A program made the position numbers and the translations under genes. A stretch of 49,994 nucleotides of DNA from Pseudomonadota bacterium. GTDB lineage: Bacteria > Desulfobacterota > Desulfarculia > Adiutricales > JAGVGV01. The stretch is from positions 1-49,994 of the forward strand of contig JAHJTB010000089.1 of assembly GCA_018830135.1 (NCBI GenBank), given 5' to 3'. Below, piece after piece: positions 25,372 to 39,806 of this stretch. The notes below the pieces were generated by a model. That model saw only the letters and a program-made list of their open reading frames with translations. It had not been told where the DNA came from and ran no database searches. Each line of letters begins with the position of its first letter. Position 1 is the stretch's first letter.

Positions 25372-25380
25372 ATCATCATT

Positions 25381-27106: not shown

Positions 27107-27480
27107 CATCACTCCCCGGAAATTCGGATAACCGCGGCGGCGTTGAAGAGTTTGAAGAAGGCCAGGGCCAGGGCGGTCAGGCCCAGGACCGGGGCCAGGA
27201 CCACGCCGGTGACCAGGGCGCCGGCGTGGTCGGCGGATTCCAGGGCGCTCAGGGCCCGGGTCACGGTGGGACGGGCGCGGTCCTTGAGATACAGGGCGAA
27301 GAGCAAAGCGAACTCCAGCCCAGCCAACAGTCCGGCCAAACCGGCCAGAAGCAGTTCCAGGGCGGGCAGGACCTTATCGGTCCGGACCCCGGCGGCGACG
27401 TTCTGCCGTCCGATCAGTCCGCCCAGGGCCAGGCCGGCCATAAACAGGGCCGAGAGCAGGCCGATGCGTTCAAAAATCCG
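27107..27480 (-). pseudogene. Second, more diverged 3' fragment of the spermidine-synthase-like gene
   Basis: FERIGLLSALFMAGLALGGLIGRQNVAAGVRTDKVLPALELLLAGLAGLLAGLEFALLFALYLKDRARPTVTRALSALESADHAGALVTGVVLAPVLGLTALALAFFKLFNAAAVIRISGE* parallels the full gene with short deletions. Confidence 0.85.
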
Positions 27481-27486
27481 GGGACA

Positions 27487-27519
27487 CATTACTGATTTAT
27501 TAGGATCACGGCACCGGAG
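27487..27519 (-). pseudogene. Tiny remnant of a further 3' end of the same gene family
   Basis: CATTACTGATTTATTAGGATCACGGCACCGGAG vs CATTACTGGTTCACCCGGATCACGGCGGCGGCG at 28306-28338 (25/33 by eye); encodes SGAVILINQ* vs NAAAVIRVNQ*. Confidence 0.5.
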
Positions 27520-27613
27520 TAAATTGCGACCTCCCATTTCAGTCGAGAATCTCCTTTTCCGGCCATCGCCCATGCCTGGAAATTCGCTGACTGTCTCGCT
27601 TCAACCAAGCAGG

Positions 27614-28307: not shown

Positions 28308-30614
28308 TTACTGGTTCACCCGGATCACGGCGGCGGCGTTGAAGAGTTTGAGGAAGGCCAGGGCCAGGGCGGTCAGGCCCAGGCCCAGGACCGGGGCCAG
28401 GACCACGCCGGTGACCAGGGCGCCGACCAGGGCCCCGGCGTGGTCGGCGGCCTCGAGGCCGGCCAGGGCCCGGGTCACGGAGGGCCGGGAGCGGTCCTTG
28501 AGATACAGGGCGAACAGGAGGGCGAACTCCAGGCCGGCCAGGAGTCCGGCCAGTCCGACCAGGGGCAGAATCACGTCCGGGATGAGGTCCCAGGCGTTGA
28601 GGGCGGCCAGTCCGGCCAGCCCGGCCAGGAGCAGTTCCAGGACCGGGAGGACCTTTCGGGTCCGGACCCCGGCGGCCACGCTCTGGCGGCCGATCAGGCC
28701 GCCCAGGGCCAGGCCGGCCATGAACAGGGCCGAGAGCAGGCCGATCCGCTCATAGACCACGCCGTGCCGATTCTGAAAGAGAAAGATGAGGATGACCTGA
28801 AGGGCCATGACCGTCCCGCCGGTCAGAGTCATGGTCCAGGCCGAGATTCGGGCCGGGGCGGGCCGAATCACTATGATGACCAGGGGCAGGCAGAGCAGTC
28901 CCAGGGCCAGGGGGCCCCAGCGGCGAACTTCGAGGGCCTGTCTCAGCAAGGCCCGGGTCCAGGGCCGTCCGGTCATCTTCTCCCACCAGACGAGCCGCAG
29001 ATAGTAGCTCAGAGGTACGGCGTCGGTGTTGAGGACGGTTTCACGGTCCGATTCCAGACGGGCTTTGAGGTATTCGACGGCGGTGGGCTGGAAGAACTGG
29101 TAGAAGGAGCGCGGTTTGAAGTAAGGCGAGGTGAAACCGAGGCGTTCATAGCGGCTGCCCAGTTTGTCCGGATCGCCGCTGACCGGACCGGACTCGGGGC
29201 CGGCGAAAAAGAAGTGCCGGTCTCCTGGCGTGACCACGACCACGGGAAACACGGTTTTCAACGTGCGGTACAGGGAGAGGCCGTAGGAGCGCATCTCCCG
29301 GCCCCAGTAGTTGTCCGCGCCGGCAATGGACGTGACCAGGACGCCTTGGGGCCGGAGCCGACTCGCGGCCTGTTTGAAGAAGTCCTGGGTGTAAAGCCGG
29401 TTGATCCGGGCGTTGTCCGGGTCCGGGGCCATGATCGCGATCAGGTCGAAGGACGGCCCCTCGGCCCGGGCCAGGTAGCGGCGCAGGTCGTCGTGAACGA
29501 TCCGCAGACGGGGGTCGTCCAGGTCCCGGGCCTGATCGGGAGTGAGATGGCGGGCCACGAGGCCGGTTTCGTCCGGGTCGAGGGCCACGTAGACCAGTTC
29601 CCGGACACCGAACTTCAGCATTTCGTGGATGAATGCGCCCGGCCCCGGACCGGCCAGCAGGACCCGGTCGAAACGGCGGGCCTGGGTCAGGAAGAGCAGG
29701 GTCAGGACCTGGTATTCCGAGGGATCGGGCCAGGAGGCGATGAAGCTCTGGTCCCCGAACAGGGACATTTCACCGCCCCGCCGGGCCAGGGCCAGGTGCT
29801 GGTAGGGCGTGTCCCTGGCGGCCAACAGTTCGTAATTCGGGTGGGCCCGGGCGAAACGGACCCGGTCGGCATGGGCGTCCAGTTCGGCGGCCAGCCCGCT
29901 GAAATGCAGGGTCAGCCCGGCGGCCAGGACCAGGGCGGCGGAAACGGCCCTGGCCGTGGCCCGGCCGGGCAGGGCCACGGCCAGGGCCAGCAGGACCAAG
30001 CCGGCCATGAAGGCCAGGGCCTGGATTGATCCGACCCGGCCGGCCATGAAAAAGGTGTACAGGAGCAGACCCAGGCAGGACCCGGCGGACTCGACCCAGA
30101 AGATTGAACCGCCCAGGCCGGAACGTTCCGCTTCCCGGCCCTGGAACCGCTCCCGCCAGTACGATCCGGCCAGGACGAAGAGCCCGCCCACGAACAGGGA
30201 GCCCGGCGCGGTCAGGGCCGCGGTCCAGCCCAGGGCCAGTTCGAAGGGCGCGGCCTCGCCCGGGGCCAGGCCGGTCAGGCCGGGGATGAGATAGGACATC
30301 GCCAGCAGCCCGCCCAGGCAGGCCAGCCAGAGCCACGGGGCCAGCCAGAGACAGAACTTGAGCCGGCGGCCACTGAGGTTCAGGGCGCCCGCGACCTGGG
30401 CCCCCAGGAATACGCCGGCCAGCCATCCGGCCAGGACCAGGGCGATGATTATTTCGCTGCCGTAGAAGGCAACCAGGAGCTGGCGGAGAAAGACCACCTG
30501 GGCCACCAGGGCCAGGGCCCCGAAGGAGCCGACCAGCAGCCCGAAGGCCGCCAGATTGAATATCCCCCCGGCAGGCCGGGGAGGATATTCGACATGTAAG
30601 GAAGAGAGAGCCAT
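28308..30614 (-). CDS. Membrane-fused spermidine-synthase-like protein (N- and C-terminal TM bundles around an aminopropyltransferase/Rossmann domain)
   Basis: DRVLLAGPGPGAFIHEMLKFGVRELVYVALDPDETGLVARHL...DDPRLRIVHDDLRRYL...YTQDFFKQAASRLRPQGVLVTSIAG; hydrophobic segments on both sides. Confidence 0.82.
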   Translation of the reverse strand: MALSSLHVEYPPRPAGGIFNLAAFGLLVGSFGALALVAQVVFLRQLLVAFYGSEIIIALVLAGWLAGVFLGAQVAGALNLSGRRLKFCLWLAPWLWLACLGGLLAMSYLIPGLTGLAPGEAAPFELALGWTAALTAPGSLFVGGLFVLAGSYWRERFQGREAERSGLGGSIFWVESAGSCLGLLLYTFFMAGRVGSIQALAFMAGLVLLALAVALPGRATARAVSAALVLAAGLTLHFSGLAAELDAHADRVRFARAHPNYELLAARDTPYQHLALARRGGEMSLFGDQSFIASWPDPSEYQVLTLLFLTQARRFDRVLLAGPGPGAFIHEMLKFGVRELVYVALDPDETGLVARHLTPDQARDLDDPRLRIVHDDLRRYLARAEGPSFDLIAIMAPDPDNARINRLYTQDFFKQAASRLRPQGVLVTSIAGADNYWGREMRSYGLSLYRTLKTVFPVVVVTPGDRHFFFAGPESGPVSGDPDKLGSRYERLGFTSPYFKPRSFYQFFQPTAVEYLKARLESDRETVLNTDAVPLSYYLRLVWWEKMTGRPWTRALLRQALEVRRWGPLALGLLCLPLVIIVIRPAPARISAWTMTLTGGTVMALQVILIFLFQNRHGVVYERIGLLSALFMAGLALGGLIGRQSVAAGVRTRKVLPVLELLLAGLAGLAALNAWDLIPDVILPLVGLAGLLAGLEFALLFALYLKDRSRPSVTRALAGLEAADHAGALVGALVTGVVLAPVLGLGLTALALAFLKLFNAAAVIRVNQ

Positions 30615-30675
30615 ATCAGTTGGCGGGCTACCCCCTCGGCAGGCCTCGGGGGATGCGCCCGCACTGCATGTTCAA
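30555..30675 (+). repeat. Dispersed two-hairpin repeat, copy B
   Basis: ATTGAATAT-CC-CCCCGGCAGGCCGGGG-AGG-ATATTCGACATGTAAGGAAG..CCATATCAGTTGGCGGGCTACCCCC..GGGGGATGCGCCCGC..TTCAA; shares core with copy A, stems differ but still pair. Confidence 0.8.
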
Positions 30676-31832
30676 GACCAGACTCCCGGAATGGCGGCCC
30701 GGCAGCGGGGGCAGCGGCCCGCGTCCATATGATTTTCCACGGCCCACATGCCGGTGCGCTGAATGAGCAGACGGCCGCACCGGGGGCAGAAGGTGTCGCC
30801 GCCGGGATGGCCGGGCACGTTGCCCAGGTAGACGTAGCGCAGTCCTTCGGCCTTGGCCGCCTCGCAGCAGCGTTCCAGGTCGGCCACCGGGGTCGGCGGG
30901 ACGTTCTGGAGTTTGTACATGGGCCGGAAGCGGGTGAAATGAATGGGCACGTCCGGCCCCAGATGGGTCTTGATCCAGCGGGCCATGGCCGTGACATCCG
31001 CCTCCCGGTCGTTGGCAGCGGGTATGACCAGGTTGACGATTTCGACCCAGACGCCGAGGCCGACCAGGTTTTCCAGGGTCTCGAGGACGGGCTTGAGCCG
31101 GCCGTGGCAGTAGTCGCGGTAGAAATCGTCGGTAAAGGCCTTGAGATCGACCTTGTAGGCCTTGAGGAAGGGAACCAGTTTCCGTTGCGCTTCCAGGGAT
31201 GTGAAGCCGTTGGAGACCACGGTGCACCTCAACCCGGCCTCATGGCCCAGCCGGGCGGTTTCGTGCATGAACTCGTAAAAGACCGTGGGCTCGTTGTAGG
31301 TGAAGGCCAGGTTGGGGATGTCGTTTTTCAGGGCCAGGGCGACCAGGGTTTGGGGCTCGATATAGCGGGCTTCGACCTTTTCGGGCCGGAACTGGGACAA
31401 CTGCCAGTTCTGACAGAATTTGCAGCTCAGGTTGCAGCCGGCCGTGGACAGGGACAGAACCATGCTGCCGGGGACCACGTGGTAGAAGGGCTTTTTTTCG
31501 ATGGGGTCGTTGTTCAGGGCCGTCACCCGGCCGTAAACCAGGGTCATGTATTCGCCCTGGCGGTTCATGCGAACCCCGCAGGCGCCCCGGCCGCCGGGCG
31601 CGACCTCGCACTGGCGGGGGCAGAGGCGGCAGCGGACGATTCCGCCTTCGAGCCGGTCGTAAAACATGGCCGGACGGACGAAGCGTTCGTCTTCAATGGA
31701 AAGCCCGGCCCCCGGCGGGGCGGCGCCGTCCGGAGCCTGGTCCTGGGCCCGGGCCGTGCCCAAAGGGCATACCCCCAGTCCGGCCGCGGCAACGGCCAGG
31801 CAGGTGGAACGCAGAAAAGTCCGTCGGTTCAT
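30672..31832 (-). CDS. amrS: AmmeMemoRadiSam system radical SAM enzyme with twin-arginine-like leader
   Basis: MNRRTFLRSTCLAVAAAGLGVCPLGTARA leader; CRLCPRQCEVAPGGRGACGVR; CNLSCKFCQNW; FTYNEPTVFYEF; C-terminal CPRCGR..CPRC. Confidence 0.88.
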   Translation of the reverse strand: MNRRTFLRSTCLAVAAAGLGVCPLGTARAQDQAPDGAAPPGAGLSIEDERFVRPAMFYDRLEGGIVRCRLCPRQCEVAPGGRGACGVRMNRQGEYMTLVYGRVTALNNDPIEKKPFYHVVPGSMVLSLSTAGCNLSCKFCQNWQLSQFRPEKVEARYIEPQTLVALALKNDIPNLAFTYNEPTVFYEFMHETARLGHEAGLRCTVVSNGFTSLEAQRKLVPFLKAYKVDLKAFTDDFYRDYCHGRLKPVLETLENLVGLGVWVEIVNLVIPAANDREADVTAMARWIKTHLGPDVPIHFTRFRPMYKLQNVPPTPVADLERCCEAAKAEGLRYVYLGNVPGHPGGDTFCPRCGRLLIQRTGMWAVENHMDAGRCPRCRAAIPGVWS

Positions 31833-31839
31833 GTCGGCC

Positions 31840-33393
31840 CTACTTCCCGGCCCCGGCCTTTTCATCCTCGCCAAAAACCTGGGCGCTGAACCGGTAGAGG
31901 TCCACGTTCGCCTGCCGCCAGGTCCCGGCGGGCAGGCCGGCCTTGACGCAGGTCTGGTCGAGGAACTTTTCCCGATCCCAGCCGTTCTCGACGGCCACCT
32001 GGGGCAGCAGCAGCCCCTGACGCTCCCCCTGGGCGATCATGAGTCCGTCCCGACCGACCTGGATGTCCTCGACCCGGTCGACCAGTTCGAACGGGGTCAG
32101 TACCGAAATTTCCAGGCTGACGCCTTCCCGGTATTCGGAGCGGGTCAGAGGGGAAAAGCGCGGGTCTCGAAAGGCGGCCGATACGGCCATGTAGGGTACG
32201 ACCTCGGACACGGGATGGTTGGCGGCCAGGTGGCCGATACACCCTCTCAGGCCGTCCTTCATCTTGATGGTCACAAAGGCCCCGCCCAGGGAATTCAGGG
32301 CCGGGGAGAGCCCCTTGGGGAAGGTGAAATCCCTGCCGTCAAAGGCGCAGTCCAGGGCGCGCCGGGCCAGGCCCAACAACTGGGCTTTCTCCGCCGGACC
32401 GAGTCGAGGCGGGGCCGGGTCCGCCTTGTTCCCTTTCGATTTCGGGTCGGCTCCGTTCCCTTCGACCAAGGCCGCGGCGACGTAGCCGACGACATGGTCG
32501 TTGTCGCCGGTGACCGTACCGGAATGGTCGTATTTCAGAATCTCGGCCCGGTTGGCTCCCAGGGACCGGGCGGCCTCCATGACCGCGATGAGGGGGCCTT
32601 CGCCGCAGGCCTCGGACCGTCCGTTGAGCATGTCGAGATGGAGTCCCCGGCCGTCAAGGCCCCGGACCCGTTCGATGACCCGGGCGTCCAGAAGCCTGGC
32701 CTCCGGGGCCGGGTGTTCATGGGACAGATCGGTGCTGGCCAGCAGCAGCGCATTTCGGCCCCGCATGGCTTCAGCCAGGGCCCGGCCCAGGGCGACCGAG
32801 GAGCCGTAGCGCCGGTTGCCCACCAGCAGAGGCACGATCCTGGCCTGGGGCAGCACGGTCTGGATGAAGGGAAGCTGTATCTCCAGGCAGTGTTCGCTCT
32901 GGTGGATTTCGGGCCGGCCGGTCACGAGCGGGCCGGCGGCCTTCTGGATGCGGTCGGCCAGGTCGCGGTCCAGGGACACCCGTCCCAGGGGAGTTTCATA
33001 GTCCTGGTAGTTGAGGGAGGCGCCTGGGAAGGCGGCCCGGTGGCTGGGACCGATCAGGACCACGGTTTCGAAGGTCCGGTTTTTCAACAGGTTGTAGGCA
33101 AAGGCGGCCACGGGCCCGGAATAGCGGTGTCCGGCATGGGGGACGACCAGGGCCTTCAGCCTTCCTTGGACCTTGGGAACGGCGGCCCGGTCGAGAAAGG
33201 CCCGGACCTGGCTTTTCAGTTCGCCGGCCTGGGCCGGGTACCACTGTCCGGCCAGGGCCGAAGGTCTGAGTCCGACTTCGGTGGCCCGGGCCGAAGCGAG
33301 CGGCAGGGCCAGGAAAAGAATCAGGATGGCGATCTGGAGCCGGACCGGGCGGCCCGGTCCGGGAGAGCTCGGGATGCGGCGGTTCCGGGACAC
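31840..33393 (-). CDS. AmmeMemoRadiSam Memo (AmrB) - AMMECR1 (AmrA) fusion with signal peptide
   Basis: RPVRLQIAILILFLALPLASARA signal; VVPHAGHRYSGPVAAFAY..LIGPSHR..STDLSHEH (Memo); GLRGCIGHLAANHPVSEVVPYMAVSAAFRDPRFSPL (AMMECR1). Confidence 0.9.
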   Translation of the reverse strand: MSRNRRIPSSPGPGRPVRLQIAILILFLALPLASARATEVGLRPSALAGQWYPAQAGELKSQVRAFLDRAAVPKVQGRLKALVVPHAGHRYSGPVAAFAYNLLKNRTFETVVLIGPSHRAAFPGASLNYQDYETPLGRVSLDRDLADRIQKAAGPLVTGRPEIHQSEHCLEIQLPFIQTVLPQARIVPLLVGNRRYGSSVALGRALAEAMRGRNALLLASTDLSHEHPAPEARLLDARVIERVRGLDGRGLHLDMLNGRSEACGEGPLIAVMEAARSLGANRAEILKYDHSGTVTGDNDHVVGYVAAALVEGNGADPKSKGNKADPAPPRLGPAEKAQLLGLARRALDCAFDGRDFTFPKGLSPALNSLGGAFVTIKMKDGLRGCIGHLAANHPVSEVVPYMAVSAAFRDPRFSPLTRSEYREGVSLEISVLTPFELVDRVEDIQVGRDGLMIAQGERQGLLLPQVAVENGWDREKFLDQTCVKAGLPAGTWRQANVDLYRFSAQVFGEDEKAGAGK

Positions 33394-33397
33394 GGTC

Positions 33398-35083
33398 TTA
33401 CTCCTTTTTGCGAGCCGCGTCGGGCAGCAGGATGCGGTTGGTCCGGGATCGGGTTTCGCCCACGGAGTTGACGTACACGGCCGGCCGGCCTTCGACGGGG
33501 CATTTGTTCGAGCATATTCCGCAACCGATGCAGCGCCCCAGGTTGACCTGAGGCGCTTTGAGGGTTACCTGCCGGTCCCGGTCGATCCGGGTCTCGTAGG
33601 GCACGAAATAGATGGCCTTGGGACTGGTCGGGCAGACTTCCTCGCAGACGATGCACGGTCCCTGGCCCGACCAGGGCAGGCAGCGGCCGCGATCGATAAA
33701 GGCCGACCCGATGGCCAGGGGCGTTTCAATCTTTTCCTTGCCGGTGATCAGCCGGATGGCCCCGGTGGGACAGACGCTCGAGCAGAGGGTGCAGGTGTAT
33801 TCGCAGTAGCCCAGGTCGAAATTGAGGTACGGGGTCCAGAGCCCTTCCCACCCGGCTTCGGCCAGGGTCGGGTTGAGGACGTTGGTCGGGCAGACGCGCA
33901 TGCACAGCCCGCAGCGGATGCATCGCCGGAGAAACTCGGACTCCTCCAGGGAGCCGGGCGGCCGGACCAGCGCGGGTTCGGGCCGCTGAACTCCGGCCAG
34001 GGAGGCGCGTCCCAGACCGACCAGGGCCGCGCCCCCGGCCAGGGAAGCCAGGACGGCCCGCCGGGCCAGGTCCGGGGCGTCCCGGGGCGGTTTGGGGGAT
34101 GGTTCCGGACCGGGGCGCATGAACTGGAACTTGAACTGGAGCACGCCCTCTGGACAGGCGGCCACGCAGTTGAAGCAGAGGTGGCATTCATGCCTCAGCC
34201 ATGGGTCTTCCGGATGGGGACCGCAGGCGCCTTGACAGTCGGCCCGGCAGAGACCGCAACGGGTGCAGCCTTCAGCGTCCTTGGTCAGATTGAGCGCCGC
34301 GTACCGGGAGGACAGCCCCATCAGCGCGCCCAGGGGACAGAGCGCGCGACAGAAGAAACGGGGCCGGACCAGATCGAGGACGAGCATGAAGACCAGGAGG
34401 CCGCCCAGAAGAAAGGCGCCCTGATAGGCCCGCGGCCCGAATCCCAGGACCGGATCGAAGGCATAGGGCCCGAGGTAGGCCAGAAATTTCAAGGGGCCGG
34501 CCGAACCCGCGGCCCAGGCCGTGGCCTGGGCGATCAGGTGGCCCAGGGCGGGAAAGAGCCCCAGGACCAGTCCCCGGTAGAGGAAGGAGAGCGGGTCCAG
34601 CAGACCGGCCTGGTCCGACCCGAGCAGGGCGGCGGCGAGAAACAGGATGAGCAGATAGTATTTGAGGTGCTGACTGGAATCCGGCTGGTTGAGCCGGGTC
34701 TTTTCCGCCAGGGACTTTTTCCGGCCGACCATGGTCACGAACTGATGCAGGGCCCCGAAGGGGCAGACAAAGCCGCAGAAGAACCGGCCCATGAGCAGGA
34801 CGGCCAGCAAAACGGCCAGGGAGATGAGGAGCGTCGGCTTGAGCGCCCAGGTGGACAGCATGGTTCCCAGGCCGACCAGGGGGTCCAGGTCGAAAAACCA
34901 GGTCACGGGCGCGGACAGTCTGAGGTCCTTGCCCGCGCCGGTCACGGCAAAGAGGGAGGCGTTGAAGCCCTGGGGCACCTGGGCCTCGGCCGCCAGATAG
35001 ACGAAGAGGACCAGGAAACCGGCCTGGCTGATTCGCCGGGCGGTCCGCCAGCCTGTAAAGCGTTTGCCCCTTGACTTTTTCAC
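33398..35083 (-). CDS. NapH/NapG-like fused membrane polyferredoxin
   Basis: CGFVCPFGAL, CRALCPLGAL, CTRCGLCRADCQGAC, CHLCFNCVAACP, CIRCGLCMRVCP, CTLCSSVCP, CIGCGICSNKCP; multiple TM helices in N-terminal half. Confidence 0.9.
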   Translation of the reverse strand: MKKSRGKRFTGWRTARRISQAGFLVLFVYLAAEAQVPQGFNASLFAVTGAGKDLRLSAPVTWFFDLDPLVGLGTMLSTWALKPTLLISLAVLLAVLLMGRFFCGFVCPFGALHQFVTMVGRKKSLAEKTRLNQPDSSQHLKYYLLILFLAAALLGSDQAGLLDPLSFLYRGLVLGLFPALGHLIAQATAWAAGSAGPLKFLAYLGPYAFDPVLGFGPRAYQGAFLLGGLLVFMLVLDLVRPRFFCRALCPLGALMGLSSRYAALNLTKDAEGCTRCGLCRADCQGACGPHPEDPWLRHECHLCFNCVAACPEGVLQFKFQFMRPGPEPSPKPPRDAPDLARRAVLASLAGGAALVGLGRASLAGVQRPEPALVRPPGSLEESEFLRRCIRCGLCMRVCPTNVLNPTLAEAGWEGLWTPYLNFDLGYCEYTCTLCSSVCPTGAIRLITGKEKIETPLAIGSAFIDRGRCLPWSGQGPCIVCEEVCPTSPKAIYFVPYETRIDRDRQVTLKAPQVNLGRCIGCGICSNKCPVEGRPAVYVNSVGETRSRTNRILLPDAARKKE

Positions 35084-36054
35084 ACCGCTATTTCGATCCG
35101 CTTTCCGGCTCCGGGGTCGATACGCCCCAGACCCTGTTGTTCGGCCAGCAGGATGTACCCCACTTCATCGGGATAGACGTCGAACAGGGCCGTCGCGGCC
35201 GCGTCAACGGCGACCTGATCGATCCCGGCGATGACCGTGTTCCGGCCGATCACGTCCGACAGCCGGCCTCCGGAAGGGCCGTTGCGAACCATGATCCGGG
35301 TGGCGTCGACCAGGACCAGGGTCGGCTGAAAAAAACGGGCCAGGTCCACGATGGACTGGTGGATGTCCTGGTGCAAGGCCCCCCGCCGGCCGCCCACGGC
35401 CCCGATCCAGTTCTTCATACCCAGGGTCAACCGGGTCAGGCCATGGCTTTTGGCCACGGGCGCGTTGATGAGCTTGTCGGCCTGGATGACGGGCATGAAC
35501 ACGGACCATTGCCCCAGACGACGACCGCCCAGGTCCATGTCCTTGAAATGTTTGGACTCCGGGTACAGCAGCCCGGCCCCGGTCTCTTTGGCCACGGCTT
35601 CGATGCCCGTGTTGAGATAACATCGTTGGGCGTTGTTGATGGTGTTGTCCACCAGATGGACCTTTTTGGCCCCGGCCCGGTAACAGAGCCGGACGATGGC
35701 CGCCAGGACTTCGGGGCTGGTGTTGGCCGCCAGTTCGGGCGGCCGGTCCCAGGACATGTTGGGCTTGACCGCGACCACGTCACCCCGGGTAATGAATTTT
35801 TCCATGCCGCCCAAGGGTTCGAGAACCTTGGCCACCAGTTCGGCCTCCCGTCCCGCCCGGTTTGAACGGGCCACGACCACCTGGTCCGGAGCCCCGGGAA
35901 TCCGGAAGTCCGACTTGATCTCCAGGCGGGTCTCGGGAGCCGCCAGGGTGTTCCGTCCGTATAGTCCGCCGTACGCCCCGACGGTCAGGGCCGCGGCCCC
36001 GCCCAGTTTGGCCAGGCGCTTGACCGCCTGGCGACGCGTAATCTTTTCCGACAT
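35080..36054 (-). CDS. DUF362 domain protein with Tat-like leader
   Basis: MSEKITRRQAVKRLAKLGGAAALTVGAYGG; GDVVAVKPNMSWDRPPELAANTSPEVLAAIVRLCYRAGAKKVHLVDNT. Confidence 0.85.
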   Translation of the reverse strand: MSEKITRRQAVKRLAKLGGAAALTVGAYGGLYGRNTLAAPETRLEIKSDFRIPGAPDQVVVARSNRAGREAELVAKVLEPLGGMEKFITRGDVVAVKPNMSWDRPPELAANTSPEVLAAIVRLCYRAGAKKVHLVDNTINNAQRCYLNTGIEAVAKETGAGLLYPESKHFKDMDLGGRRLGQWSVFMPVIQADKLINAPVAKSHGLTRLTLGMKNWIGAVGGRRGALHQDIHQSIVDLARFFQPTLVLVDATRIMVRNGPSGGRLSDVIGRNTVIAGIDQVAVDAAATALFDVYPDEVGYILLAEQQGLGRIDPGAGKRIEIAV

Positions 36055-38108: not shown

Positions 38109-39806
38109 ATGACGGAGGAACGCACATTCAAGGCCTGGCACCGAGGGTCTGACATGACCCGGCGCGATGTGCTGAAAAAGGGACTTGGGGCTGCGGCCGT
38201 TTTGGCCGCGGGCGGAACCGGGGCCGCGTTGCGGAGTGGAGGCTGGACCGCCATAGCCGGTGAGCCCTACGACTGCGTCATCCGGGGCGGACTGGTTTAC
38301 GACGGGATTTCGTCCGAGCCTCGCCAGGCGGACGTGGCGGTTCGGGGGGATCGGATTACGGCCGTGGGCCGGATCGAGGGTCCGGCCGCCCGGGTCGTCC
38401 AGGCCGACGGCCTGATAGTGATGCCGGGTTTCATCGACGTGCATACCCACTGCGACCTGACCTTCAAGCGGTCCGGGTTGAAGCGTCACCTGGCCCGGGT
38501 CATGCCCAGTTGGAAAGGCAACTACAACTATCTCCACCAGGGCGTAACCACCGTGGTCACGGGCAACTGCGGCTACGGATACACGGATGTCGATTACTGG
38601 TTCGGACTGCTCGAGGATATCGGGTTCGGGACCAACGTGTATCACCTGGCCCCGCACGGCATGCTGCGGGAGGCCCTTTTCGGTCCGGACCACCAGGGCC
38701 CCTTGAACGCCTCGCAACTGGACCGGCTGGCCGGCCGGGTCGAGGAGGAAATGCAAAAAGGAGCGGTGGGGCTTTCCGCCGGCCTGGAGTACGCCCCGGG
38801 TATCTGGGCGGACGTCCGGGAGATATCGACCTGCGCCCGGGCGGCCCGCAAGCATGGCGGACTGTTCACGGTGCACATGCGGGACGAATCCGGCGCCGTG
38901 AAGCCGGGCGGGCGTCCGGCCCTGCTGGAATCGATCGCCGAGGTCGTGGAGGCGGCCCGCCAGGCCGAGGTCGGCCTGGAAATTTCCCATCTGAAAATCA
39001 GCGCGCCATACAACGACCTGCGTCCCGGCCAGGTCTTCGACCTGATCGAGGAAGCCAGGCGACAGGGGCTGGACGTCACCGCCGACCAGTATCCCTACAC
39101 GGCCGGCAGCACCTACATCTCCATCTTGCTACCCGACGAATTCAAGTCCGGCCTGGGCGTCAAGGACCGGTACAAGACACGTTCCGGTCAAGTGGAGATC
39201 GAGAAGGCCATGGCCGAGGTCTTCTCCTACCTGCCACCGGACCGGATACTGATCAGCTTCGACCCGAACGACGAGACCCGGGAGGGCAAGACCCTGGAAG
39301 TCCTGGCCGAGACGACCGGCCGGACTCCGGCCCGGGCCTACGCGGAGATGGTCTGCGAGGACCCGCCGCCCACGGGCATATTTTTCATGATGAAGGAGGC
39401 GGACGTGCGGGCGCTGATGCAGCCGGACTACGTCATGACCGCGTCGGACGGCTGGACCGTGCCCAAGGACATGACCAAACCCCATCCGCGCTGCTATGGG
39501 ACGTTTCCCAAAAAGATACGGGAGTATGTTCTGAAGGAGCGGATCGTGGACCTGCCCCGGGCCATCCGCTCGATGACGTCTCAGCCGGCGGAAAAATTCA
39601 GGCTGAAAGACCGGGGCCGGATCGAGGTCGGGTATTTCGCCGATATCGCGGTGATCGACCTCAAGGGCCTTAACCATCACGCCAGCTACCTGGACCCGCA
39701 CCAGTACGCCAGCGGGGTCCGACATCTGCTGGTCAACGGCGTGGCGGCCATTGAAAACGGTCAGGCCACTGGTGAACGGGGCGGCCGGGCTTGCAGACGA
39801 AGCTGA
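38109..39806 (+). CDS. N-acyl-D-amino-acid deacylase / D-aminoacylase-like amidohydrolase with Tat-like leader
   Basis: MTRRDVLKKGLGAAAVLAAGG leader; YDCVIRGGLVYDG, MPGFIDVHTHCDLTF, TTVVTGNCGYG, MTASDGWTVPK. Confidence 0.85.
   Translation: MTEERTFKAWHRGSDMTRRDVLKKGLGAAAVLAAGGTGAALRSGGWTAIAGEPYDCVIRGGLVYDGISSEPRQADVAVRGDRITAVGRIEGPAARVVQADGLIVMPGFIDVHTHCDLTFKRSGLKRHLARVMPSWKGNYNYLHQGVTTVVTGNCGYGYTDVDYWFGLLEDIGFGTNVYHLAPHGMLREALFGPDHQGPLNASQLDRLAGRVEEEMQKGAVGLSAGLEYAPGIWADVREISTCARAARKHGGLFTVHMRDESGAVKPGGRPALLESIAEVVEAARQAEVGLEISHLKISAPYNDLRPGQVFDLIEEARRQGLDVTADQYPYTAGSTYISILLPDEFKSGLGVKDRYKTRSGQVEIEKAMAEVFSYLPPDRILISFDPNDETREGKTLEVLAETTGRTPARAYAEMVCEDPPPTGIFFMMKEADVRALMQPDYVMTASDGWTVPKDMTKPHPRCYGTFPKKIREYVLKERIVDLPRAIRSMTSQPAEKFRLKDRGRIEVGYFADIAVIDLKGLNHHASYLDPHQYASGVRHLLVNGVAAIENGQATGERGGRACRRS

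Follow-up and report, generated by a model that had tools for sequence, protein, structure and literature searches.

The usual AmmeMemoRadiSam systems, exemplified by G042 and G043, consist of AMMECR1 (AmrA, TIGR04335), Memo (AmrB, TIGR04336), and the radical SAM enzyme AmrS (TIGR04337), which are encoded by separate genes and carry no leader peptides. Memo-AMMECR1-radical SAM systems made up of the same three families were reportedly described by Burroughs et al. in 2019 (JBC, cited in PMC7159879). Radical SAM enzymes are regarded as confined to the cytoplasm, and neither SAM nor strong reductants are known to occur outside it. Radical SAM enzymes need electrons of about -500 mV, which could not be supplied by quinol. 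Searches of the mainly open-access literature turned up neither a radical SAM enzyme described as exported nor the variant discussed below.

Organization of the locus

In the window, the 49,994-nucleotide stretch of DNA analysed here, the AmmeMemoRadiSam proteins score above all three family cut-offs and have intact metal sites but differ from the usual systems in carrying leaders on both AmrS and Memo, in the fusion of Memo to AMMECR1, and in having SpeE-like and DUF362 neighbours. The five genes are close-packed on the minus strand from position 36054 to position 28308, forming a single run in which neighbouring genes are -4 to 57 bases apart:

35080..36054, minus strand: DUF362 protein with a Tat-type leader, MSEKITRRQAVKRLAKLGGAAALTVG, a predicted LarA-like fold, and conserved H204 and K214 (PF04015, AF2, Foldseek)
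33398..35083, minus strand: polyferredoxin resembling a NapH-NapG fusion (profile matches, predicted topology, MLMS-1 architecture)
31840..33393, minus strand: Memo (AmrB)-AMMECR1 (AmrA) fusion with a Sec-type leader containing LQIAILILFLALPLASARA (TIGR04336, TIGR04335, ribosome-binding site, conservation)
30672..31832, minus strand: AmrS radical SAM enzyme with a predicted Tat leader, MNRRTFLRSTCLAVAAAGLGVCPLGTARA (TIGR04337, clade, leader, Cys conservation, start)
28308..30614, minus strand: SpeE-like protein with seven predicted transmembrane (TM) helices, a spermidine-synthase-like domain, and seven more TM helices (AF2, fold, loop charges, neighbourhood)

The contiguous minus-strand genes for AmrS, the Memo-AMMECR1 fusion, the polyferredoxin, and the DUF362 protein, listed in the original prediction, are all present as claimed, as is the Tat-like leader of the DUF362 protein, whose start at ATG 36054 is supported by an upstream GGAGGT. 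The fusion starts at GTG 33393, preceded by AAGGAG. The most probable start of AmrS is ATG 31832, which lies 8 bases beyond the fusion stop codon, and the SpeE-like gene begins after a gap of 57 bases downstream of AmrS.

A leader-bearing clade of AmrS

The window AmrS scores 354.2 bits against TIGR04337 (curated cut-off, 220), and a sequence search of the PDB, at the threshold used, returned no relative. A tree of 138 AmrS proteins places nearly all members that carry a leader in one clade of 94 (SH-aLRT 95) that spans about ten phyla, including that of the window, Planctomycetota, Calditrichota, KSB1, Acidobacteriota, and Spirochaetota. An RR motif is found in 90 of the 94, an RK motif in 3, and a single member is leaderless; a small Spirochaetia-type group (L063/L198, L050) has RK in place of RR. 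Leaderless AmrS paralogues, often encoded in the same genome (that of the window included), fall outside this clade and start right at the domain, with no N-terminal extension. The CxxxCxxC motif (C147, C151, and C154 in the numbering of the 400-residue open reading frame) is present in 94 of 94 members; there are two more conserved four-Cys sets, and 11 Cys residues are kept in at least 93 of the 94. Residues of the Fe-S and SAM sites are equally conserved in the exported and leaderless proteins.

The leader of the window AmrS combines an RR motif, a moderate h-region, and an AxA site, and by these features it is predicted to be a genuine Tat leader. AxA-type cleavage sites are common among the exported AmrS leaders, the core of which is unusually Cys-rich (95/112). 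In 159 close pairs, the leader region has accumulated 3049, 1260, and 842 substitutions at codon positions 3, 1, and 2, respectively, a coding-type pattern indicating that the leader is translated and under selection rather than a start-site artefact or a chance stretch. Together with the widely kept RR motif, this bears out the proposal of a Tat-like leader on AmrS; the search for orthologues without a leader, suggested as a check on that proposal, did not refute it, as the leader is retained in 93 of the 94. TatC was found in 45 of the 49 genomes tested, that of the window among them, and the four genomes without a match are possibly incomplete.

The Memo-AMMECR1 fusion

AmrA and AmrB are encoded beside AmrS in the window as one fusion, which scores 258.7 bits against TIGR04336 and 167.3 bits against TIGR04335, both above cut-off. 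Its putative metal ligands H86, H118, and C263 correspond to H49, H81, and C244, the metal ligands of MEMO1 (PMC11081632); the match of C263 to C244 comes from the family alignment, as the PDB alignment stops before C263. The Memo ligands are conserved, as assessed in 45 fusions plus 20 Memo proteins encoded singly. The AMMECR1 part carries the RGCIG motif at residues 383 to 387.

By a fixed rule based on an 11-residue hydrophobicity window (an earlier 13-residue version overlooked many true leaders), leaders were scored in 41 of 44 fusions versus 4 of 20 single Memo genes (p = 7e-9); one further fusion has a leader recognizable by eye. Two of the four single genes adjoin exported AmrS genes, and the other two resemble upstream non-coding reads. 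Sec-type leaders are thus found on the fusions and on Memo proteins beside exported AmrS, whereas stand-alone Memo proteins elsewhere lack them; a few fusions carry lipoprotein-like leaders. The fusion had been predicted to be secreted, with folded Fe-S proteins going through Tat; it does have an export leader, but one that is Sec-like, not Tat. In anammox genomes, the fusion is encoded far from AmrS, and the conserved extra genes near it are mostly housekeeping neighbours.

Proteins encoded near leader-bearing AmrS

A comparison of 73 exported with 31 leaderless AmrS loci placed genes for Memo, DUF362, and SpeE beside the exported form, with hardly any next to the leaderless form. A SpeE-like gene is found near 33 of the 73 exported but 0 of the 31 leaderless AmrS genes, in keeping with the earlier suggestion that the adjacent SpeE-like protein may belong to the module, and a DUF362 gene lies beside 22 of the 73, in many phyla, versus 1 of the 31.

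The window SpeE-like protein (AF2 pLDDT 87.9; TM helices 7+7) shares with the polyamine aminopropyltransferase SpeE the domain fold (TM-score about 0.72 on target) and a SAM-type GGGxGG motif. It differs in having 14 TM helices, in the enzyme domain being predicted outside (from topology prediction, AF2, and loop charges in 25 orthologues), and in scoring far under the equivalog cut-off (117 versus 472 for PRK03612), although the Pfam domain is recognized (33.8; cut-off, 22.9).

The DUF362 protein scores 166.1 bits against PF04015 (gathering cut-off, 24). The top 13 PDB matches of its AF2 model (pLDDT 79) in Foldseek all belong to the LarA/malate racemase family (E 1e-4; TM 0.36-0.49), so the modelled fold appears to be LarA-like (LarA and DUF362, Pfam clan CL0471, PMC11770544). 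A possibly equivalent H-x9-K spacing occurs in the DUF362 protein, which in LarA holds the cofactor-tethering lysine; hhalign does pair the His and Lys of DUF362 with those of the LarA cofactor site, but at P = 0.005, which makes the correspondence tentative. The window protein differs from LarA in its Tat leader, and any cofactor would be putative; a profile search gave no match to Lar_N (PF09861), and its relatives match this domain weakly (0.0062 and 0.00099). A test of a possible nickel-pincer role found LarC in 20 of 23 genomes, three DUF362-carrying genomes being without it. A PDB search with the DUF362 sequence yielded mainly TAL-repeat matches to an Ala-rich segment, which were disregarded.

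The polyferredoxin scores 101 against NapH (cut-off, 234) and 94 against NapG (cut-off, 269), missing both equivalog cut-offs, and is therefore related to these proteins without being either. The internal RR-hydrophobic segment noted before corresponds to RR at residues 341-342, right before the last predicted TM helix (344-362), and the predicted topology puts Fe-S motifs on either side of the membrane. The polyferredoxin of MLMS-1 likewise combines a NapH-NapG fusion, an RR preceding the fifth TM helix at about residue 340, and Fe-S motifs on both sides; it belongs to the dual Sec-Tat type and was Tat dependent in a reporter test (Tooke et al. 2017, PMC5449189). Unlike it, the window polyferredoxin adjoins an exported AmrS in one run, and its own export is a prediction. 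Such genes are near few exported AmrS genes, only in the class of the window (window, L126, and L133), with a NapH-only relative at L349. The proposed electron-moving role thus agrees with the dual Sec-Tat type but is weakened by this restriction to one class.

A probable exported variant of AmmeMemoRadiSam and alternative readings

The favoured reading, to which we assign a probability of about 70%, is that of a conserved, exported variant of AmmeMemoRadiSam in which AmrS and the fusion would act jointly outside. The export prediction itself is strong. The sequences show the leaders, their grouping in one clade, the co-varying Memo leaders, the gene neighbourhoods, intact catalytic residues, and topology; the export part of the original prediction, that the module may work at or outside the membrane, gains from the clade-wide and co-varying leaders. 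AmrS would fold and load its metal clusters in the cytoplasm before passing through Tat, the fusion would cross unfolded through Sec and acquire its metal, iron or copper, once outside, the DUF362 protein, LarA-like in its predicted fold, would take the Tat route, and the SpeE-like domain would be kept outside by its 14 helices. As folded partners, AmrS and the fusion could then meet only outside, and the export routes match the cofactors (Tat for the Fe-S protein AmrS, Sec for the fusion), which counts for an exported variant. The two most likely act jointly on a periplasmic or membrane-bound substrate, and in the class of the window the two-sided polyferredoxin may carry electrons across the membrane. 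From these features we infer actual export, joint action, an electron route, and the use of SAM outside; radical SAM chemistry there would imply SAM and low-potential electrons in the same place. That such an enzyme works outside in many phyla, with electrons crossing the membrane and SAM or a SAM-like ligand available to AmrS and the SpeE-like domain alike, is proposed tentatively, at somewhat less than even odds. Several points weigh against the favoured reading: the background on SAM and -500 mV electrons given above, the small number of exported AmrS genes with a polyferredoxin nearby, the distance between fusion and AmrS in anammox genomes, the four genomes without a TatC match, and the RK group.

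An AmrS leader arising from a wrong start site or a chance hydrophobic stretch is hardly credible: Shine-Dalgarno sequences precede 50 of 90 upstream starts versus 27 of 71 internal starts among the orthologues, a comparison that leaves this reading some room, but RR conservation, the coding-type substitutions, and paralogues beginning directly at the domain led us to reject it. The leader could also be an uncleaved anchor holding the enzyme on the cytoplasmic side, where SAM is, to work on the substrates of the leaderless paralogues. The Cys-rich core does hint at more than targeting; however, by the positive-inside rule an RR ahead of the helix places the domain after it outside, AxA-like ends are seen in many leaders, and a Sec leader precedes the Memo partner, making an anchor quite improbable.

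Export without radical turnover, with AmrS performing one reaction with pre-bound SAM or serving in non-catalytic metal or substrate binding, would dispense with extracytoplasmic SAM and reductants, suits the transport of loaded, folded proteins by Tat, and fits the scarcity of adjacent polyferredoxins. We consider it unlikely, as conservation at the Fe-S and SAM sites matches that of the leaderless proteins and a Memo partner that crosses by Sec cannot be met in the cytoplasm. A likelier alternative concerns the class of the window, where the polyferredoxin may be a local accessory or may form with DUF362 a separate Tat module that adjoins the exported system by chance. At L126 and L133, the DUF362-NapHG pair lies next to a Tat aldo/keto reductase and is divergent from Memo-AMMECR1 and AmrS, and the window DUF362 shares only some 25% identity with the DUF362 proteins linked to AmrS in other phyla; against this stand the uninterrupted run of all five window genes and the presence of DUF362 beside exported AmrS in many phyla. 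Chance adjacency is therefore possible, though we would bet against it.

Implications

There appears to be a second copy of AmmeMemoRadiSam, every part of it apparently exported, in bacteria of about ten phyla. A catalytically intact, widely conserved exported lineage would pose the problem of how SAM and strongly reducing electrons get outside; if SAM or a SAM-like ligand serves AmrS and the SpeE-like domain there, this would mean a hitherto unrecognized SAM supply to the periplasm. In the exported lineage, the substrate must be periplasmic or membrane-located, the presence of partners resembling LarA and SpeE limits the range of possible chemistry, and the leaderless AmrS copy in the same genomes is a natural control. 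Such a lineage would offer an entry point to MEMO1 and AMMECR1, two conserved proteins of humans with an enigmatic molecular function.

Organization of the gene run

The contiguous minus-strand cluster of the original prediction is confirmed as a close-packed run, of which the gene for a SpeE-like membrane protein is the fifth member:

36054-35080, minus: DUF362 protein (above the Pfam cut-off)
35083-33398, minus: NapH/NapG-type polyferredoxin (related, below equivalog cut-offs)
33393-31840, minus: Memo-AMMECR1 fusion (both halves above family-model cut-offs)
31832-30672, minus: radical SAM enzyme AmrS (above the family-model cut-off)
30614-28308, minus: SpeE-like membrane protein (related, below equivalog cut-offs)

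From DUF362 to the SpeE-like gene, a 4-base overlap is followed by gaps of 4, 7, and 57 bases. Minus-strand pieces at 27112-27600 and near 25379 match the C-terminal transmembrane part of the SpeE-like protein and resemble remnants of a second copy. On the plus strand, an amidohydrolase-like protein (by eye) with the Tat-type leader MTRRDVLKKGLGAAAVLAAGG is encoded at 38109-39806.

Leader-bearing and leaderless AmrS

The source genome (6.8 Mb, 562 contigs, contamination 6.2%) encodes two AmrS proteins, one with a Tat-type leader (predicted to be exported) and one leaderless; each clusters in the tree with its counterpart from related genomes, so neither looks like contamination. The sample was obtained by scanning genome contigs and adding paralogs found in those genomes and their relatives. 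In the tree of 138 cores (leader excluded), built by a quick method without bootstraps and containing some long branches, nearly all leader-bearing AmrS belong to one clade of 94 entries (SH-aLRT 95), and the leaderless forms, which start right at the domain (e.g., MKEA or MREA), lie outside it. This clade spans Planctomycetota (including Brocadia, Kuenenia, and Scalindua), Calditrichota, KSB1, LCP-89, Acidobacteriota, Spirochaetota, Krumholzibacteriota, Sumerlaeota, Auribacterota, Zixibacteria, and Desulfarculia. The Tat-like leader originally proposed for the window AmrS is borne out by these homologs: the twin-arginine position holds RR in 90 of 94 entries, as read from the leaders themselves (RRKF scored as RR, locus L203 included), and RK in 3 (two identical), and one entry has no leader. 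Within the window's phylum, the most similar loci beyond the source genome have RR (25/29) or KR (4/29), which is not a frequency, as these loci were picked by similarity. Among 159 close-relative pairs, which overlap and are not independent, leader substitutions at codon positions 3, 1, and 2 number 3049, 1260, and 842, the pattern of a coding region under selection.

Within their hydrophobic core, exported AmrS leaders are rich in Cys: 95 of 112 have at least one and 61 at least two, with a preference for positions 13 and 16 after the first Arg, often as C-x-x-C, versus 6 of 42 other Tat-like leaders; examples are loci L021, L033, and L306 and the window leader (31832-31746). Tandem exported AmrS pairs, each with its own RR leader, are found at L335, L336, L337, and L338. 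The AmrS at L063 and L198 (Spirochaetia genome G089) has RK, and a search for TatC in that genome gave no match; the related L050 AmrS also has RK, and its genome encodes TatC. Scalindua rubra (G091) carries one leaderless AmrS copy (L077) and a leaderless fusion (L272) as well as a leader-bearing AmrS (L067).

The Memo-AMMECR1 fusion

The signal-peptide-like start noted earlier on the fusion proved typical: with duplicates removed and one fixed hydrophobicity rule, hydrophobic leaders were scored in 41 of 44 fusions versus 4 of the 20 Memo genes that stand alone (p = 7e-9). Two of those four adjoin exported AmrS, and the remaining two appear to be sequence read from upstream of the gene; among the fusions that failed, L050 has a clear leader by eye, L007 a weak one, and L272 none. 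These leaders are Sec-like, and a few end in lipobox-like motifs. Genomes with leaderless AmrS only, such as G042 and G043, encode Memo and AMMECR1 separately, both without leaders. In anammox-type genomes (L265-L273, L275-L277), a second, leaderless AMMECR1 gene adjoins the fusion.

The active sites are retained. Of the 94 exported AmrS entries, 93-94 retain each of eleven Cys residues (82, 85, 89, 99; 147, 151, 154; 363, 366, 388, 391; numbering of the 400-aa ORF). Memo H86, H118, and C263 correspond to the iron and copper ligands H49, H81, and C244 of MEMO1 (PMC11081632), and the AMMECR1 half keeps RGCIG.

Partner proteins

At loci flanked by 2.5 kb or more on either side, partners were counted within 4 kb of AmrS; the surveyed entries are related to each other, and the exported set was partly gathered by similarity to the window, so that significance values for these counts serve as a rough guide only. 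Exported versus leaderless AmrS were accompanied by Memo in 20/73 versus 0/31, DUF362 in 22/73 versus 1/31, and the SpeE-like gene in 33/73 versus 0/31 cases, the last in agreement with its suggested membership in the module. Anammox genomes have the AmrS and fusion genes at separate positions.

Both the structure model of the SpeE-like protein (pLDDT 87.9) and the mean hydropathy of 25 sequences predict 7 + 7 transmembrane helices flanking a spermidine-synthase fold with an intact GGGxGG motif. Loops on the N-terminus side hold about 17 Lys/Arg versus about 5 in the remaining loops, which predicts an outside location for the domain.

With the DUF362 model (mean pLDDT 79), the first 13 places in a PDB structure search were LarA and malate racemases. 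A weak profile alignment (P = 0.005) pairs H204 and K214 with LarA's invariant His and Lys, and the L282 DUF362 protein has HGIVGFSGGMK where LarA has HxxAGFSGGxK. One Pfam clan already holds both families (PMC11770544).

The window polyferredoxin has the same layout as the MLMS-1 protein, whose translocation is Tat-dependent by reporters (PMC5449189). The electron-moving role originally assigned to it is possible, with electrons passing from cytoplasm to periplasm, although NapGH itself is a quinol dehydrogenase. Such proteins occur near exported AmrS in only three genomes, all of the window's class. At L349, a NapH-only relative adjoins AmrS. L126 (1530-2831 and 2869-5860) has a single run of genes for a Tat-leader aldo/keto reductase, a NapH/NapG polyferredoxin, and DUF362, oriented divergently from the fusion and AmrS genes.

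Proposed function

Tat is the route for Fe-S proteins leaving the cell, and Sec that for proteins loading metal later; judged by their leaders, the module components obey this rule. Export of the module is well supported by sequence. The weak point of an outside-acting system is SAM supply, to which the SpeE-like domain, also predicted outside, may, speculatively, be tied. The fusion would cross unfolded through Sec, so that once folded it could meet AmrS only outside; we therefore think that the substrate is periplasmic or in the membrane. The module is a conserved variant, predicted to be exported, of the known AmmeMemoRadiSam system.
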